Positions 1-47,111 of a stretch of 64,000 bases of DNA are shown piece after piece. Under the pieces are notes generated by a model that was not told the DNA's origin, did not search any database, and was given only the letters and a program-made list of their open reading frames with translations. Origin of the DNA: Chloroflexota bacterium (GTDB lineage: Bacteria > Chloroflexota > Dehalococcoidia > Lucifugimonadales > UBA3495); contig PBMF01000028.1 of the NCBI GenBank assembly GCA_002721995.1, positions 27,161 to 91,160 on the forward strand, written 5' to 3'. How positions within the stretch are numbered: the stretch's first letter is position 1; each line of letters starts with the position of its first letter. Position numbers and translations under genes: made by a program.

Positions 1-16
1 GATTTCAAGCAAGCAG

Positions 17-1309
17 GTGCACAGAATGGCAGCGGTAACCCCCTTCAGAGGATGGCGGTACAACCCGGACACGGTGGGAGACATGGCCTCGGTCCTTTGC
101 CCACCATATGACATGATCACCCCTGAGACCCAAGACGCCCTCAAACGTCAGAACCAGTACAACGTGATCCACCTCGAAGCCGGAGAGGGCCTGGACTGGA
201 CCGCGTCGGTCAAGGAACAGTACGCCGCCACCGCCAACCTTTTTGACGCCTGGATGCAAGAAGGGGTGCTCATCCAGGACCAGGAACCCTGCTACTACCT
301 GATGCGGCATAGCTTCCCCCTGGGAGGCAAGAACATGGTCCGCCTGGGGCTCATAGCTTCGGTGGGACTGGAGGACTACCAGACCCGGCAGGTGCTGCCC
401 CATGAGTTCACCGAGGCCCCGGCCATCCGTGACCGGGTGCTGCTCATGGAATCCCTCAGCGCCAACATCAGCCCCATCATGTCCATGTACCGCGACGCCG
501 ACGGCGTGCTGGATAAGGTGTTCCAGCAGGTAATGGCCGGTACTCCGGTGATGGACGCAAAAGACGACGCCGGTGGCGCTGCGGCCCTGTGGCGCATCTC
601 TGACTCCTCAACCCAGGCCCAGATACAGGAGTTCTTCTCCGGCCGCCCAATCTACCTGGCCGACGGCCACCACCGCTACGAAGCTGCCCGCCAGTACCAA
701 CTGGACCGCCACGCCGAGGGAGCGGCCAACAAGGCTGCAAATCTGGCCCACAATTTCGTGATGATGACCCTCATCGCCTTCGACGACCCAGGTCTGGTGG
801 TGCTGGGCTATCACCGCACCCTGAGCGGCGTGCCAGAGGACAAGCTGGCCAACATCAAAACCAGGCTGGACGGGTTATTCGACGCCCAGCCTCTGGCGGG
901 TGACGCCTATTCCCTGGTGGAGCAGGTAACCGAGCTTGGACAAAAGGGGAGGCTGTTGGCGGCGGTGGACCGCGACGGCGCCAAGCTGTTGACACTGAAA
1001 GACTCGGCGGTGAAGCCCGACTGGGGTGTGTTGGCGGCTTCCGAGGCGTGGGTGATAGAGGAGCAAGCTCTGCGTCCCGAACTGGGCGACGCGACGTTGG
1101 ACCACCTGGGTTTCATCCACGACCACGATGAGGCGGTCAACCGGGCCATTAACGGGGAACTGCAAATGGCCTTTTTGCTGAAGCCATTCCCCCTGGACGC
1201 CTTCGAGAGCATAGTGGGCGGCGGCCAGAGGCTGCCCCGGAAGTCCACTTTCTTCTTCCCCAAGCTGCCCACCGGCCTGGTCATCAACCGGCTGGAGGGG
1301 GAACTCTAA
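17..1309 (+). CDS. DUF1015 family protein
   Basis: Full-length ORF; N-terminus AAVTPFRGWRYNPDTVGDMASVLCPPYDMI and internal YLADGHHRYEAA are typical of DUF1015. Confidence 0.85.
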   Translation: MHRMAAVTPFRGWRYNPDTVGDMASVLCPPYDMITPETQDALKRQNQYNVIHLEAGEGLDWTASVKEQYAATANLFDAWMQEGVLIQDQEPCYYLMRHSFPLGGKNMVRLGLIASVGLEDYQTRQVLPHEFTEAPAIRDRVLLMESLSANISPIMSMYRDADGVLDKVFQQVMAGTPVMDAKDDAGGAAALWRISDSSTQAQIQEFFSGRPIYLADGHHRYEAARQYQLDRHAEGAANKAANLAHNFVMMTLIAFDDPGLVVLGYHRTLSGVPEDKLANIKTRLDGLFDAQPLAGDAYSLVEQVTELGQKGRLLAAVDRDGAKLLTLKDSAVKPDWGVLAASEAWVIEEQALRPELGDATLDHLGFIHDHDEAVNRAINGELQMAFLLKPFPLDAFESIVGGGQRLPRKSTFFFPKLPTGLVINRLEGEL

Positions 1310-37400: not shown

Positions 37401-39266
37401 ATGTATGTTATAGGCACCGCCGGTCACGTTGACCACGGCAAATCCACCCTGGTGAAGGCCCTCACCGACATTGACCCGGACCGCTTTCCCGAAGAGAAGG
37501 CCCGGGAGATGACCATCGACCTGGGCTTTGCCTGGATGACGCTGCCCAGCGGCCGCGACGTCAGCATCGTGGACGTCCCCGGCCACGAACGTTTCATCAA
37601 GAACATGCTGGCCGGCGTGGGCGCCATCGACCTGGCCATGCTCATCGTCTCCGCTGAAGAGGGCGTCATGCCCCAGACCAGAGAGCACCTGGCCATCTTG
37701 GACATCCTGCAGATCACCCGCGGCCTGGTGGTCATCACCAAGACCGACCTGGTGGACGAGGAGATGGTGGAACTGGTCAAGGCCGACGTGGAGGACACCC
37801 TCATCGGCACGTCCTTCGAAGGCTGCCCCATGCTCGGCGTCTCCGCCTACACCCTTGACGGAATCCCCGAACTGAAGGCCGCCATCGACACGATTCTGGA
37901 CAACACCCAAGCCCGGCAGGACCTGGGCCGCCCCCGCCTGCCCATCGACCGCTGCTTCACCATCTCCGGATTCGGCACGGTGGTGACAGGCACCCTCATC
38001 GACGGCACCCTCACCGTGGGGCAGGAGATTGAGCTGGCCGGGTCAGGCCAAAAGGCCAGAGTTCGCGGACTCCAAAGCCACAAGACCAAGGTCGACGCCA
38101 CCGACCCTGGCGTAAGATTGGCGGTGAACCTTTCCGGACTTTCCAAGGACGAGGTGGAGCGAGGTGAGATTCTGACCATACCCGGCTGGCTCAAGCCCAC
38201 TTACCGCGTGGACGCCCGCCTGCGCATGGTCAAGAACGCACCCCACCCCCTGCGGCATAACCAAGGCATCACCTTCCACCTCTTCACCAGCGAAGCCTCG
38301 GCCCGGGTCAGGCTCTTGGACGCCGACCGGCTGACCGAAGGACAAGAGGGCTGGGTACAGCTGCTGCTTTCAGACCCCCTGCCCGTGGTGAAAGGCGATT
38401 TCTTCGTTGTCCGTTCCGCGGAGGACACTTTGGGGGGCGGCCAAGTCGTCGATCCCCACCCCAGACGACGCTACCGCCGCTTCGACAACGACGTATTGGA
38501 ACGGCTCATGACCCTGGACCAGGGCACCGGCGGCGACATCATCATCAGCGTGTCCGAGCAGTGGGGACCCTGCGACCTGACCGCCCTGTCCCAGCGCACC
38601 AACCTATCCCGCGAGGAAGTGACGGAAAGGGTGGCCCAACTGGCAGAGGAAGAGCACCTGGTCACCCTGGGCGATTTCGGCAGCGACGCCGACGCCGTGG
38701 TCTACTCGGCCCAGGGCTGGGACATACTGAAGAGCAAGGTCCTCTCAGCCCTCCAGCTCTACCACACCCAGTACCCCCTGCGTACCGGCGTCCCGGCCCA
38801 GGAGATCCGCAGCCGGCTCAGCCTGTCCCAGCCCGTGTACCAGCGCGCATTGGCCCGGCTCACAGCCGACCAAGTGGTGGTGGACGAGGGCCAGTCCCTG
38901 CGCCTTCCCGACCATGAAGTTGTCATGACGCCAAAGATGGAAGAAGAGGCGTCAGCCTACTTGAAGTCACTACAAAAAGAGCCATACTCTCCCCCCAGCG
39001 ACCAGCCGGTGGACTCGGAGCTGCTCAGTGTCCTCATTGACCAGGGCAAGGTGGTCAGAGTCGCCGATTCGGTGGTATTCGACGCCGGGGCCTACCGGGA
39101 AATGACCGAGCGCATCGTCCAGCATTTGAAGGACCAGGGCACCATCACCGTGGCCGACGCCCGCACCATGTTCGACACCAGCCGCAAGTACGTACTGCCC
39201 CTGCTGGAGCGCATGGACCAGCAGCAGATAACCCGCCGCAACGGCGACGAACGGGTGCTCAGGTAA
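37401..39266 (+). CDS. selB: Selenocysteine-specific translation elongation factor SelB
   Basis: IGTAGHVDHGKSTLVKALTDIDPDRFPEEKAREMTIDLGFAWM, VDVPGHERFIKNMLAGVGAID, C-terminal winged-helix-like region. Confidence 0.92.
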   Translation: MYVIGTAGHVDHGKSTLVKALTDIDPDRFPEEKAREMTIDLGFAWMTLPSGRDVSIVDVPGHERFIKNMLAGVGAIDLAMLIVSAEEGVMPQTREHLAILDILQITRGLVVITKTDLVDEEMVELVKADVEDTLIGTSFEGCPMLGVSAYTLDGIPELKAAIDTILDNTQARQDLGRPRLPIDRCFTISGFGTVVTGTLIDGTLTVGQEIELAGSGQKARVRGLQSHKTKVDATDPGVRLAVNLSGLSKDEVERGEILTIPGWLKPTYRVDARLRMVKNAPHPLRHNQGITFHLFTSEASARVRLLDADRLTEGQEGWVQLLLSDPLPVVKGDFFVVRSAEDTLGGGQVVDPHPRRRYRRFDNDVLERLMTLDQGTGGDIIISVSEQWGPCDLTALSQRTNLSREEVTERVAQLAEEEHLVTLGDFGSDADAVVYSAQGWDILKSKVLSALQLYHTQYPLRTGVPAQEIRSRLSLSQPVYQRALARLTADQVVVDEGQSLRLPDHEVVMTPKMEEEASAYLKSLQKEPYSPPSDQPVDSELLSVLIDQGKVVRVADSVVFDAGAYREMTERIVQHLKDQGTITVADARTMFDTSRKYVLPLLERMDQQQITRRNGDERVLR

Positions 39267-42929: not shown

Positions 42930-44096
42930 CTAAGCCAGCACCCGGTATCGGTAGCTGGACTCCAACAGGTCACCCTCCTGGAAGCGGTTGAACCGCAAGG
43001 GCGAGATGTCCACCGAACTGGCCTTTCCCTCCACGATCAACTCCGCCATGGTCACGCCGATCATGGGGGACAGCTTGAACCCGTGGCCGCTGAAACCGAT
43101 GGCGCAGTAGAGCCCTTCAATGCCAGGCACCGCGTCCAGAATGGGGTGCCAGTCGGGCGTGGTAGTGAAGAGCCCCGACCAGCCCCGGCGGAACTCCGCC
43201 TCTGCCATGGCGGGTATCCGGTGGGCCAGGCAGGAAAGCGCCTCGGCCATCACATCCATATCCACACCCTGGTTGTAGGTCTCCAGGTCATCGTCACCAT
43301 CGGGGCCAAAGCCCATCATGGTCTGTTCACGGCCGTCGGGGCGAAAGGAGAATGACTGGGCGATATCCCCCACCATTGGATGCAGGGGCAATTTGTCCAC
43401 GGGCCGGCTCAGGGACGCCACCTGATGACGCACGGGCACCAGCGGGACGTCCACGCCCACCTGGGCCAACACGCCCTTGGACCAGGGGCCCGATGCCACA
43501 ACGGCGACCGGTGTCTCCACCCGTCCCTGTTCGGTCACAACAGCCCTGACCTTGCAGCCCTCAACCTCGATTGCCGAGGCGGCGTTCCGCAGGGAGACCT
43601 CGGCGCCCATCTCCCGAGCCCGGATGCCGTAGGAAGTGGTGACCATGTGGGCGTCGGCATAACCCGATTGGGGCTCCCAGGCCATCACCTCATCGTCACT
43701 CACCGAGACCATTGGAGCGATGTCCCGGAGGTCGTCGGCGGTGACCTGCATGGTATCGATACCCAATTGGTACTGCAAGGCCACGTTGCGCTCCAGTCCT
43801 CCCCTATCCTCTTCCTTCACCACCACCAAATAACCCGTCTCCACAAACCCCGATTCGCCGCCCACCACTTCACCGAAGTGGGTGAATATTCCCAGGCTCT
43901 CCCAGGCCATGGTGGCGGTAACCGGGTTGGAATAGTGCATCCGGCAGATGGTCTGGGAGCGGCCGGTGGAACCGGAACCCAGCACGTCTTTCTCCACCAG
44001 CAGGGTGTCGGTCACGCCCAGACGGCCCAGATTGAAGAGCAAACTGGTCCCGATGACCCCGCCGCCTATAACCACTACGTCAGCCGTGGCTTTCAT
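42930..44096 (-). CDS. FAD-dependent oxidoreductase (DAO/sarcosine oxidase beta-like)
   Basis: ADVVVIGGGVIGTSLLFNLGRLGVTDTLLVEKDVLGSGSTGRS; YCAIGFSGHGFKLSPMIG. Confidence 0.9.
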   Translation of the reverse strand: MKATADVVVIGGGVIGTSLLFNLGRLGVTDTLLVEKDVLGSGSTGRSQTICRMHYSNPVTATMAWESLGIFTHFGEVVGGESGFVETGYLVVVKEEDRGGLERNVALQYQLGIDTMQVTADDLRDIAPMVSVSDDEVMAWEPQSGYADAHMVTTSYGIRAREMGAEVSLRNAASAIEVEGCKVRAVVTEQGRVETPVAVVASGPWSKGVLAQVGVDVPLVPVRHQVASLSRPVDKLPLHPMVGDIAQSFSFRPDGREQTMMGFGPDGDDDLETYNQGVDMDVMAEALSCLAHRIPAMAEAEFRRGWSGLFTTTPDWHPILDAVPGIEGLYCAIGFSGHGFKLSPMIGVTMAELIVEGKASSVDISPLRFNRFQEGDLLESSYRYRVLA

Positions 44097-44208: not shown

Positions 44209-44237
44209 TTGACAGTTGTCGACCCCAAGAGTAGACT
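44209..44237 (+). promoter_or_regulatory. Promoter of sulfite reductase operon
   Basis: TTGACA (44209-44214), 17-nt spacer, TAGACT (44232-44237). Confidence 0.65.
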
Positions 44238-44245
44238 TTACCGAG

Positions 44246-44302
44246 ATGCTGAAGTTGGACGGCAACCTCTGCGCTTGTTGTTGTATCTGTCCCCGTACAT
44301 AG
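44246..44302 (+). CDS. Putative leaderless poly-cysteine leader peptide MLKLDGNLCACCCICPRT
   Basis: ATG CTG AAG TTG GAC GGC AAC CTC TGC GCT TGT TGT TGT ATC TGT CCC CGT ACA TAG; 5 Cys in 18 codons; ATG lies 8 nt after the -10. Confidence 0.65.
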   Translation: MLKLDGNLCACCCICPRT

Positions 44303-44353
44303 GGAACAGGTAACCTTCTGCGTTAACTAAACAAACACCACCAGGTACCCCTG

Positions 44354-44387
44354 AACCCACCGATGCGATTTTGGTGGGTTTTTATTT
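44354..44387 (+). terminator. Intrinsic terminator (attenuator) upstream of sulfite reductase
   Basis: AACCCACC (44354-44361) / GGTGGGTT (44373-44380), perfect 8-bp stem, 11-nt loop, then tttattt; located before the gene, not after one. Confidence 0.75.
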
Positions 44388-44414
44388 GCCCAGGATTTTG
44401 GAGGACAATACACC

Positions 44415-46277
44415 TTGACTAGCCAGACCTCAACCGGACAGGAAAAGACCCAGGAAGCCATCTACGAAGAGAGCTTGGAACTCTCGAAGAATACCCAGAC
44501 CATCATTCCCTTCATGGACGATGAGATTGTGCGGTTGGAGGAGGAGTCGGCGGCATTCGTGGCCGGCCAGAGGGAGATCACCGAGTTCACACCCTTCCGT
44601 TTGAAACAAGGTGTGTACGGCCAACGCCAGGCCGGTGTGCAGATGATTCGCGTGAAGATTCCCGGCGGCATCATCACTCCGGAAGCCATGGACGCCTTGG
44701 GCGAACTGACCTCCAAATACGCTCCCTTGGGCAAGGGCCACATCACCACCAGAGAGAACTTCCAGTTCCACCACATCCCCCTGGACCAGTGCCCGGACGC
44801 TCTGCGTCTCATCGGCGCGGCCGGCCTCAGCACCCGTGAGGCGTGCGGCAACGTGGTGCGGAACGTGGTGGGAGCGCCCACTGCGGGCATATGCGCCTCT
44901 GAGGTCTTCGACCCCACGCCCTATCTGGCGGCCTTCGTCCGTTTCGCGGTCCGCCATCCCCTGACCCAGAACTTCCCACGGAAGTTCAAGTCAGCCTTCA
45001 CCGGCTGCGACGACCATGACCATGTGGCCGCGGCCATTCAGGACCTGACCTACGTGTCCCAGATTCGCGTGGAGAACGGCGTCGAGAAACGCGGCTTCAA
45101 GGTGTTCGTCGGCGGCGGCACGTCCATCATGCCCCGTCTGGCGAAACCCCTCTATGAATTCCTGCCGGAGGAAGACTATCTCCGGCTGGCCCTGGCCCTG
45201 TTCACCGTCTTCAACAACGCAGATATGTTGCGCAAGAACCGGATGATGGCCCGCCTGAAGGTCCTCATCGACCGCATCGGCCTGGACGAGTTCAAGGGCC
45301 TGGTGGAAGCAGAGTTGGAGAAGATCGGACCCATCGACCCCACGCCCTGGATGAACGTGGAAGAGATGATGCGGGAGACCCCGCCCGCCCTGGCCGCCAA
45401 TGGCAACGGCCACAGCAACGGTCACAACGGGAACAACGGGAACAACGACTACGACACCTGGCGCGCCACCAACGTGGAAGCCCAGAAACAGGACGGCTAC
45501 TACGCCGTGCACGTCAAGCCAGACCGCGGCAACATAACCGCCAGCCAGTTTCACAGCCTGGCTGACATCATCCGCAAGTACACCAGCGGGCGGGCCCGCA
45601 CCAGCCAGGAGCAGAACCTGGTGCTCCGGTTCATCCCCGAGCATTCCCTGCCCGATGTATTCGACGCACTGACCGAGATCGACCTGGCCGAAGCCAACGC
45701 CAACTCCATCACCAACGTCGTCTCCTGCCCTGGCACCGATAGCTGCAAGCTGGGCATCACGTCCTCCATGGGCCTGGCCGGCGCTCTGAAACAAGAAATG
45801 AGCAACTGGAACGGCCTGCTCCAAGACGAGGGTGTCAACGACATCCGCATCAAGATGAGCGGCTGCCCCAACGGCTGCGGACTCCACCACATCGCCAACA
45901 TCGGCTTCCACGGCGGGGCCGTGAAGGGCGCCGAGGGCCAGCAGATCCCGGCCTACGAGATGTTCCTGGGCGGAAACTACGGCGACCACAAGGTCACCGA
46001 CTCCCGCATCGGCACCCGCATACCCCTGGTCAAGATTCCCGCCAAGTCGGTGCCCGGCGTCCTGAAAGACGTGGTCACCTACTACAAGGACAACCGCTCC
46101 GGCGGCGAGAGCTTCAACCAGTTCCTCGACCGCGTCGGTGTGGAAGAACTGACCGAAGTCGCGTCCAAGGCCCAGCAGGCCGCCGCCGACGCAACTCCCG
46201 GCTCTGATCTCTACATCGACTGGGAACGCTCCAACCAGTACGTACTGGAACGGGGCGAAGGCGAGTGCGCCGTCTAG
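44415..46277 (+). CDS. Nitrite/sulfite reductase (siroheme, 4Fe-4S)
   Basis: TTG start with ggagga SD; GKGHITTRENFQFHHIPLD, CPGTDSCKLGITSSMGLAG, MSGCPNGCGLHHIANIGFHG siroheme/4Fe-4S motifs. Confidence 0.92.
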   Translation: MTSQTSTGQEKTQEAIYEESLELSKNTQTIIPFMDDEIVRLEEESAAFVAGQREITEFTPFRLKQGVYGQRQAGVQMIRVKIPGGIITPEAMDALGELTSKYAPLGKGHITTRENFQFHHIPLDQCPDALRLIGAAGLSTREACGNVVRNVVGAPTAGICASEVFDPTPYLAAFVRFAVRHPLTQNFPRKFKSAFTGCDDHDHVAAAIQDLTYVSQIRVENGVEKRGFKVFVGGGTSIMPRLAKPLYEFLPEEDYLRLALALFTVFNNADMLRKNRMMARLKVLIDRIGLDEFKGLVEAELEKIGPIDPTPWMNVEEMMRETPPALAANGNGHSNGHNGNNGNNDYDTWRATNVEAQKQDGYYAVHVKPDRGNITASQFHSLADIIRKYTSGRARTSQEQNLVLRFIPEHSLPDVFDALTEIDLAEANANSITNVVSCPGTDSCKLGITSSMGLAGALKQEMSNWNGLLQDEGVNDIRIKMSGCPNGCGLHHIANIGFHGGAVKGAEGQQIPAYEMFLGGNYGDHKVTDSRIGTRIPLVKIPAKSVPGVLKDVVTYYKDNRSGGESFNQFLDRVGVEELTEVASKAQQAAADATPGSDLYIDWERSNQYVLERGEGECAV

Positions 46278-46289
46278 AGCAGCCCTGAT

Positions 46290-47111
46290 TTGCCAGCATC
46301 CCTAAAAGGAAAAACCGTCGCTTACGTCGAGGCCCGCATGCTCTCCGAGATGGGGGCCTTGATAGAGCGTCACGGCGGCACCCCCTACGCAGCGCCGGTT
46401 CTCCAGGAAGTGCACCTGGGAGACACTCCCGAGGTAATCTCCCTGGTGGACGATGTCTGCTCCAGGGTGGTCCAGGTAATGGTCTTCCAGACCGGAGTCG
46501 GCACCAAAGCCCTCTTCGACAGCGCCGAGTCCCTGGGCAAAGAGTCCCAGGTGCTGGACGCCCTGGCCAACCTCACGGTCATATCCCGCAGCCCCAAGCC
46601 CTCTGCCGTGCTGCGCCGCAAAAATGTCCACATCGACCACATGCCGCCCGAGCCATTCACCTCCAATGACCTCATCGAAACCATAGGAGGGTTGGAGCTC
46701 AGCGGAAAGTCGGTGGCCATCCAGGCCTACGGCGGCCCCAACGGCCTGCTCACACGCACACTCAGAGAGCGGGGCGCCACGGTGCGGGAGGTCTCCACCT
46801 ACACCTGGGGAATGCCCGAGGACACAGCGCCGGTGCTGGCGATGATTGAGGACCTGGACCAGGGGTCCATTGACGCCCTGGCATTCACCAGCCAGCCCCA
46901 GATTGGCAACCTCATCGCCATCGCCGCCCAGACCGGGAAAGAGGAATCACTCCGTAATAGCCTGGCGCGGGAGTCCCTAGTTGTGGCATCGGTCGGCCCG
47001 GTCACCACCAAACGTATGTTGGATGCGGGCATCAAGGTGGACGTTGAGCCGGACCACCCTCATATGGGCAACCTGGTACTAGCCTTGGCCGACCGTCTCA
47101 ACCCGGACTAA
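46290..47111 (+). CDS. hemD: Uroporphyrinogen-III synthase
   Basis: GKTVAYVEARMLSEMGALIERHGGTPYAAPVL; VVQVMVFQTGVGTKALFDSA; ALAFTSQPQIGNLIAIA; VVASVGPVTTKRMLDAGIKVDVEPDHPHMGNLV. Confidence 0.85.
   Translation: MPASLKGKTVAYVEARMLSEMGALIERHGGTPYAAPVLQEVHLGDTPEVISLVDDVCSRVVQVMVFQTGVGTKALFDSAESLGKESQVLDALANLTVISRSPKPSAVLRRKNVHIDHMPPEPFTSNDLIETIGGLELSGKSVAIQAYGGPNGLLTRTLRERGATVREVSTYTWGMPEDTAPVLAMIEDLDQGSIDALAFTSQPQIGNLIAIAAQTGKEESLRNSLARESLVVASVGPVTTKRMLDAGIKVDVEPDHPHMGNLVLALADRLNPD

Follow-up and report, generated by a model that had tools for sequence, protein, structure and literature searches.

The leader that precedes the sulfite reductase gene sir and its neighbour hemD in a SAR202-lineage Chloroflexota genome is very probably a cysteine-responsive, ribosome-mediated transcription attenuator, with leaderless initiation predicted. 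It lies in the window, the whole 64,000-nucleotide (nt) stretch of DNA analysed here, which comes from a metagenome-assembled genome (MAG) designated G000 (2.57-Mb assembly, ~88% complete); the nearest named relatives are Dehalococcoidia/Chloroflexi MAGs. SAR202 is an uncultured marine lineage, abundant in the ocean. A sequence-only reading of the window had proposed such a switch, and the proposal is now supported by conservation of the leader, its promoter spacing and its terminator, by a second copy at a cysteine-synthase operon, and by alternative RNA structures, which that reading did not include. The evidence for the attenuator is computational throughout; genome-wide statements are based on pattern searches and protein searches.

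Anatomy of the leader and the question of chance

The promoter, leader open reading frame (ORF), Cys codons, terminator, Shine–Dalgarno (SD) sequence and TTG start had all been located beforehand, and each was recovered base for base. The parts are as follows, all on the plus strand.

44209-44237, +: promoter, TTGACA (44209-44214), 17 nt, TAGACT (44232-44237), from the sequence and a scan (10/12 matches)
44246-44302, +: leader ORF encoding MLKLDGNLCACCCICPRT, Cys codons 9, 11, 12, 13 and 15, stop codon TAG at 44300-44302
44287-44294, +: segment 1, CTGTCCCC, overlapping the last Cys codon; partner of segment 2 when free
44302-44312, +: segment 2, GGGAACAGGTA, the switch strand, which overlaps the end of the stop codon by one base
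44350-44361, +: segment 3, CCTGAACCCACC; pairs with segment 2 as antiterminator through 44350-44353 and 44356-44358, and contains the 5' arm of the terminator, 44354-44361
44373-44387, +: segment 4; the 3' arm of the terminator occupies 44373-44380 and the U tract 44381-44387
44400-44405, +: SD sequence GGAGGA of the sulfite reductase, outside the terminator hairpin
44415-46277, +: sir, ferredoxin-type sulfite/nitrite reductase, NirA/SirA-like, TTG start at 44415; the gene predicted to be regulated
46290-47111, +: hemD, uroporphyrinogen-III synthase (leads to sirohaem), 12 nt downstream of sir

The promoter scored best in its region, and the same scan recovered the terminator at 44354-44387: AACCCACC (44354-44361), 11 nt, GGTGGGTT (44373-44380), then TTTATTT through 44387. 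The leader ATG at 44246 stands 8 nt past TAGACT, with no SD sequence between the -10 element and the start codon. Across dozens of SAR202 loci the start codon is mostly 6-9 nt past the -10 element (10-11 at the MoeB loci described below), and the promoter spacer is 17, rarely 18 nt. From this spacing and the lack of an SD sequence, a leaderless or almost leaderless mRNA is predicted for the leader ORF. The upstream neighbour, a flavin adenine dinucleotide (FAD) oxidoreductase gene on the opposite strand (start at 44096), is divergent; therefore the terminator serves no gene upstream, as the sequence-only reading had held, and can act only on the sir operon, to which hemD probably belongs. The closest solved structure to the sir product is Mycobacterium tuberculosis NirA (1zj8, E 1.5e-51).

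At the coding Cys frequency (1.0%), the chance that 17 codons include at least five for Cys is p ~6e-7; with intergenic base composition it is p ~1.5e-4. The control that decides the matter is comparative. A genome-wide search of G000 for TTGACA-17-TANNNT-(6..11)-ATG finds five sites in total. The ORFs at three of them have lengths of 1, 2 and 9 codons; the two that open ORFs of more than 9 codons both encode Cys clusters, and both stand before sulfur/cysteine genes.

Conservation and a candidate cysteine regulon

Sulfite reductase is present in 55 of 60 relatives, a tally that includes some distant paralogues. Upstream DNA was read at 50 sir loci, 32 from the same family (L002-L029, L031-L034) and 18 from other families of the order. 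Had the leader been a peculiarity of this genome, the search upstream of homologous sir genes foreseen by the first reading would have shown it; instead, a Cys-rich leader ORF occupies the same place at 32/32 same-family loci, with ends such as CTCPPT or CVCMCCVPK at the stop codon, or SCCTCTCYIG... It is also found at 12 of the 18 other-family loci (L030, L036-L041, L043, L045, L046, L049, L050), and other named SAR202/Dehalococcoidia loci have leaders such as MNIAVTMCACCCRP and MSINYSFNCCCSL. A first Cys filter passed over leaders with two Cys codons (L030, L036, L037, L038, L041); promoter-anchored scans and direct reading caught them. The strong hairpin and U tract are kept at most loci; the terminator script found none at three divergent ones (L039, L040, L045). 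Among the loci returned by the homologue search, sir homologues of Thermoleophilia and other Actinobacteria have no such leader upstream.

One could suppose that a protein regulator or a riboswitch controls sir, the ORF and terminator being incidental. An additional protein factor at the promoter is conceivable; no point in support of this explanation was found. Cys codons and terminator persist together across many genera, and the leader matches no Rfam cis-regulatory RNA family, even at E<=1; the explanation is scarcely credible.

The second copy in G000 (contig C18:34575-35414; L175, L274) has the leader MNAYQFQLPCACTCPPT and lies before a MoeB/ThiF-like gene and cysteine synthase; it is kept in 18/20 same-family genomes. 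The motif TGTCCNCCNACATAGGGNGCRGG (CPPT and stop codon), allowing at most two mismatches, matches G000 only at the sir and MoeB-cysteine synthase operons. The pattern TTGACA-17-TANNNT-(6..9)-ATG-(9..39)-TGYNNNTGY has matches in 41/60 relatives, and its reversed control has 0. The non-sir matches that were followed and have an intact leader lie before CysH-Sat (L162, L168), TauE/SafE then CysH-Sat (L163), TauE/SafE (L165), or a MoeB-like gene and cysteine synthase (L164, L166, L167), gene names at the loci of these three kinds being read from translated ORFs, not from family search. A match before ABC transporter genes (L169) was dismissed as chance. L203 belongs with L162, L163, L165 and L168 among the loci of other SAR202 families that have a Cys-rich leader before CysH-Sat or TauE/SafE. 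The same device at MoeB-cysteine synthase in this genome, and at CysH-Sat or TauE/SafE in other SAR202 families, would constitute a small cysteine regulon.

Matches of a phylum-wide pattern search are mostly chance, many with Cys codons out of frame; only L220 looks real. This locus, from the same phylum and a different class, has the leader MMTYATLLSCFTCSCMVRA and a terminator before cysteine synthase, with a weaker fit of segment 2 to segment 3 (2:3), and suggests a wider distribution in Chloroflexota. At L225, from another class of Chloroflexota, a promoter-proximal ORF encoding MSCCCVHR precedes genes for an apparent zinc-ribbon protein and a CobW-type GTPase.

Genomes G000-G035, of the window's family, gave no match to a CysH homologue, despite the presence of sulfite reductase; this family presumably draws its sulfite from another source than CysH. 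The switch would then set the share of such sulfite going to cysteine.

Some observations stand apart. L131, from a MAG labelled Acidobacteria, has TTGACG-18-TAGAAT-8-ATG and the leader MFSLCSKTMCLMCCCR before a homologue of sulfite reductase; a clear terminator is lacking. L125 is in a record titled Bifidobacterium breve MAG, yet its sulfite reductase resembles those of Solirubrobacterales, and the record may be mislabelled. In the window, an ORF at 37401-39266 resembles SelB, the selenocysteine elongation factor.

The predicted RNA switch

The end of the leader is under a double constraint, peptide coding and RNA pairing: TGT CCC CCC ACA TAG GGG GCA GG comprises the CPPT and stop codons as well as segments 1 (TGTCCCCC) and 2 (GGGGGCAGG). 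Of the two terminator arms, the 5' one is segment 3 (CCTGCGCCCACC) and the 3' one is segment 4 (GGTGGGC). Across the family alignment, 86% of pairs between segments 1 and 2 (1:2) are kept; for 2:3, 82% of cells pair, a share that falls to 62% or less if the partner is shifted by 1-5 columns. The window leader was folded in different ribosome states, at the stage before the terminator 3' arm exists and with the footprint edge assumed to lie 11 nt past the A-site codon. With no ribosome, P(1:2) is ~0.85; a stall at Cys11, 12, 13 or 15 gives P(2:3) of 0.76-0.97, which is the antiterminator; with the ribosome at the stop codon neither 1:2 nor 2:3 forms, and the antiterminator is abolished.

From these structures we infer a course of events that runs from start site through leader translation, stalling and read-through to the cysteine response. 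Transcription would start at the leader AUG or no more than a few bases away, and the leader would be translated without an SD sequence. With ample Cys-tRNA the ribosome would reach UAG, which adjoins segment 2, and cover that segment; segment 3 would then be free for segment 4, and RNA polymerase would stop at 44381-44387. With Cys-tRNA short, the ribosome would stall at Cys codons 11-15, covering segment 1 and leaving segment 2 exposed; segment 2 would pair with segment 3, the terminator would be pre-empted, and sir-hemD would be transcribed. Without a ribosome, 1:2 would form, making termination the default.

Several points weigh against this attenuator. Six of the 18 other-family SAR202 sir loci have no recognisable leader (L035, L042, L044, L047, L048, L051). 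The substrate of the sir product, which we infer to be sulfite and not nitrite, belongs on the same side. In the folding, a stall at Cys9, the first Cys codon, leaves P(1:2) at ~0.85 and is predicted to favour termination. At equilibrium the completed terminator is more stable than the antiterminator in every ribosome state; therefore antitermination must be kinetic, which is the usual assumption for trp-type attenuators. Finally, segments 2 and 3 vary little within the family, and column-wise covariation is thin; for this reason a swap test between families was used. For 17 representatives from different families/operons, segment 2 pairs with its own terminator arm at a mean of -16.9 kcal/mol, versus -12.9 kcal/mol with the arms of others; 0/20,000 permutations reached the observed sum (p<1/20,000), and the single cases L162, L163 and L220 are unremarkable. 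The 2:3 complementarity is thus lineage-specific.

Translation attenuation of the mycobacterial type would have the stalled ribosome on the poly-Cys ORF alter access to the downstream SD sequence, and the hairpin would be no working terminator. There is precedent, in that mycobacterial leaderless poly-Cys ORFs before cysteine genes are described as translation attenuation in PMC13236596, citing Canestrari 2020. Set against it are the conservation of the strong hairpin and U tract noted above, and the pairing of segments 2 and 3, which stays within the terminator and does not involve the SD sequence. That sequence (44400-44405) lies outside the structures, for which reason control by SD masking was rejected, and translation attenuation as a whole has little probability.

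Codon choice adds to the case for an attenuator. Long ORFs of the window contain 148 TGC and 23 TGT codons, and sir genes 336 TGC and 38 TGT, versus 51 TGC and 111 TGT in the leaders (leaders against sir genes, Fisher p 5e-42, a value overstated since the loci are related). In family leaders the first Cys codon is TGC in 27/33 and the last is TGT in 30/33 (33 loci counted, including L030). Termination is predicted to be favoured by a stall at the first Cys and antitermination by stalls at later ones, so the arrangement of the two codons may tune the switch.

The skew to TGT also bears on the idea that the Cys-rich peptide is itself a sensor or product (binding metal or Fe-S, or acting in redox), the leader being a small protein gene. 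Conserved clusters such as CxCxCPPT are present, as this idea would have it, and such clusters could bind metal or react with oxidants. However, the N-terminal half of the peptide varies freely among genera; the Cys cluster runs up to the stop codon, next to which lies the switch strand; and every clear association is with cysteine/sulfur genes. Together with the codon skew, these make a peptide sensor highly improbable.

Beyond the single locus, we lean towards a broader proposal: that SAR202 senses cysteine mainly via leaderless poly-Cys transcription attenuators, which serve sir-hemD and MoeB-cysteine synthase, with CysH-Sat and TauE/SafE among their targets in other families; that the device combines the leaderless ORF of mycobacteria with the terminator switch of enteric bacteria; and that TGC first and rare TGT later place the antitermination stall. 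Should the attenuator itself be borne out, cysteine-responsive attenuation would reach a phylum for which no report was found in the open-licence PMC literature, and transcription attenuation would be seen to be within the scope of leaderless poly-Cys ORFs. A cysteine regulon could then be read from sequence in organisms almost beyond culture, and the coupling of leaderless initiation to attenuation would have a model open to testing.

Comparison with known systems

In 2005, terminator-free Cys leader peptides were predicted for Mycobacterium, P. acnes and B. longum (PMC1262725); the mycobacterial poly-Cys short ORFs were found to be leaderless in 2015 (Shell 2015, PMC4633059); and Cys leaders of M. 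smegmatis respond to cysteine, according to citing passages (Canestrari 2020, Mol Microbiol 114:93, via PMC13236596, PMC9031893, PMC9094748). The sequence-only reading had drawn the analogy with mycobacteria. It stands as regards the short ORF: both have a Cys run near the stop codon, before cysteine/sulfur genes, and the SAR202 ORF is predicted to be of leaderless type as well. It does not extend to mechanism: mycobacterial leaders have no conserved intrinsic terminator (PMC1262725) and are described in the passage cited as translational (PMC13236596), whereas the leader in SAR202, a Chloroflexota lineage, has an intrinsic terminator and a predicted 1-2-3-4 switch of trp type. The SAR202 leader would work similarly to the mycobacterial attenuators, yet is not counted as one of them.

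The same reading knew of no description outside Actinobacteria. This was too narrow, as a Cys-codon attenuator with terminator, the uORFC-8-2 motif, has been predicted before cysS in Rhodobacterales (PMC8632094). The two share a short ORF with Cys codons, an intrinsic terminator and predicted transcription attenuation. As described there, uORFC-8-2 belongs to another phylum, has two tandem Cys codons and serves a tRNA synthetase gene, whereas the SAR202 leader stands before sir; the passage describing it is silent on leaderless initiation and a sulfur regulon, both proposed for SAR202. For Chloroflexota, three further surveys of attenuators or non-coding RNAs in the open-licence PMC literature contain nothing of this kind.

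In its predicted mechanism the leader resembles attenuators of the trp/his type. As in these, a leader ORF with many codons for the end-product amino acid lies before biosynthetic genes, an intrinsic terminator lies between leader and first gene, and protector, antiterminator and terminator hairpins are mutually exclusive, the antiterminator being predicted to depend on ribosome position. The enteric examples have an SD-led leader peptide; unlike them, the SAR202 leader is predicted to initiate leaderless, and its amino acid is cysteine. The pieces are known separately; their combination, the lineage and the regulon appear to be undescribed.
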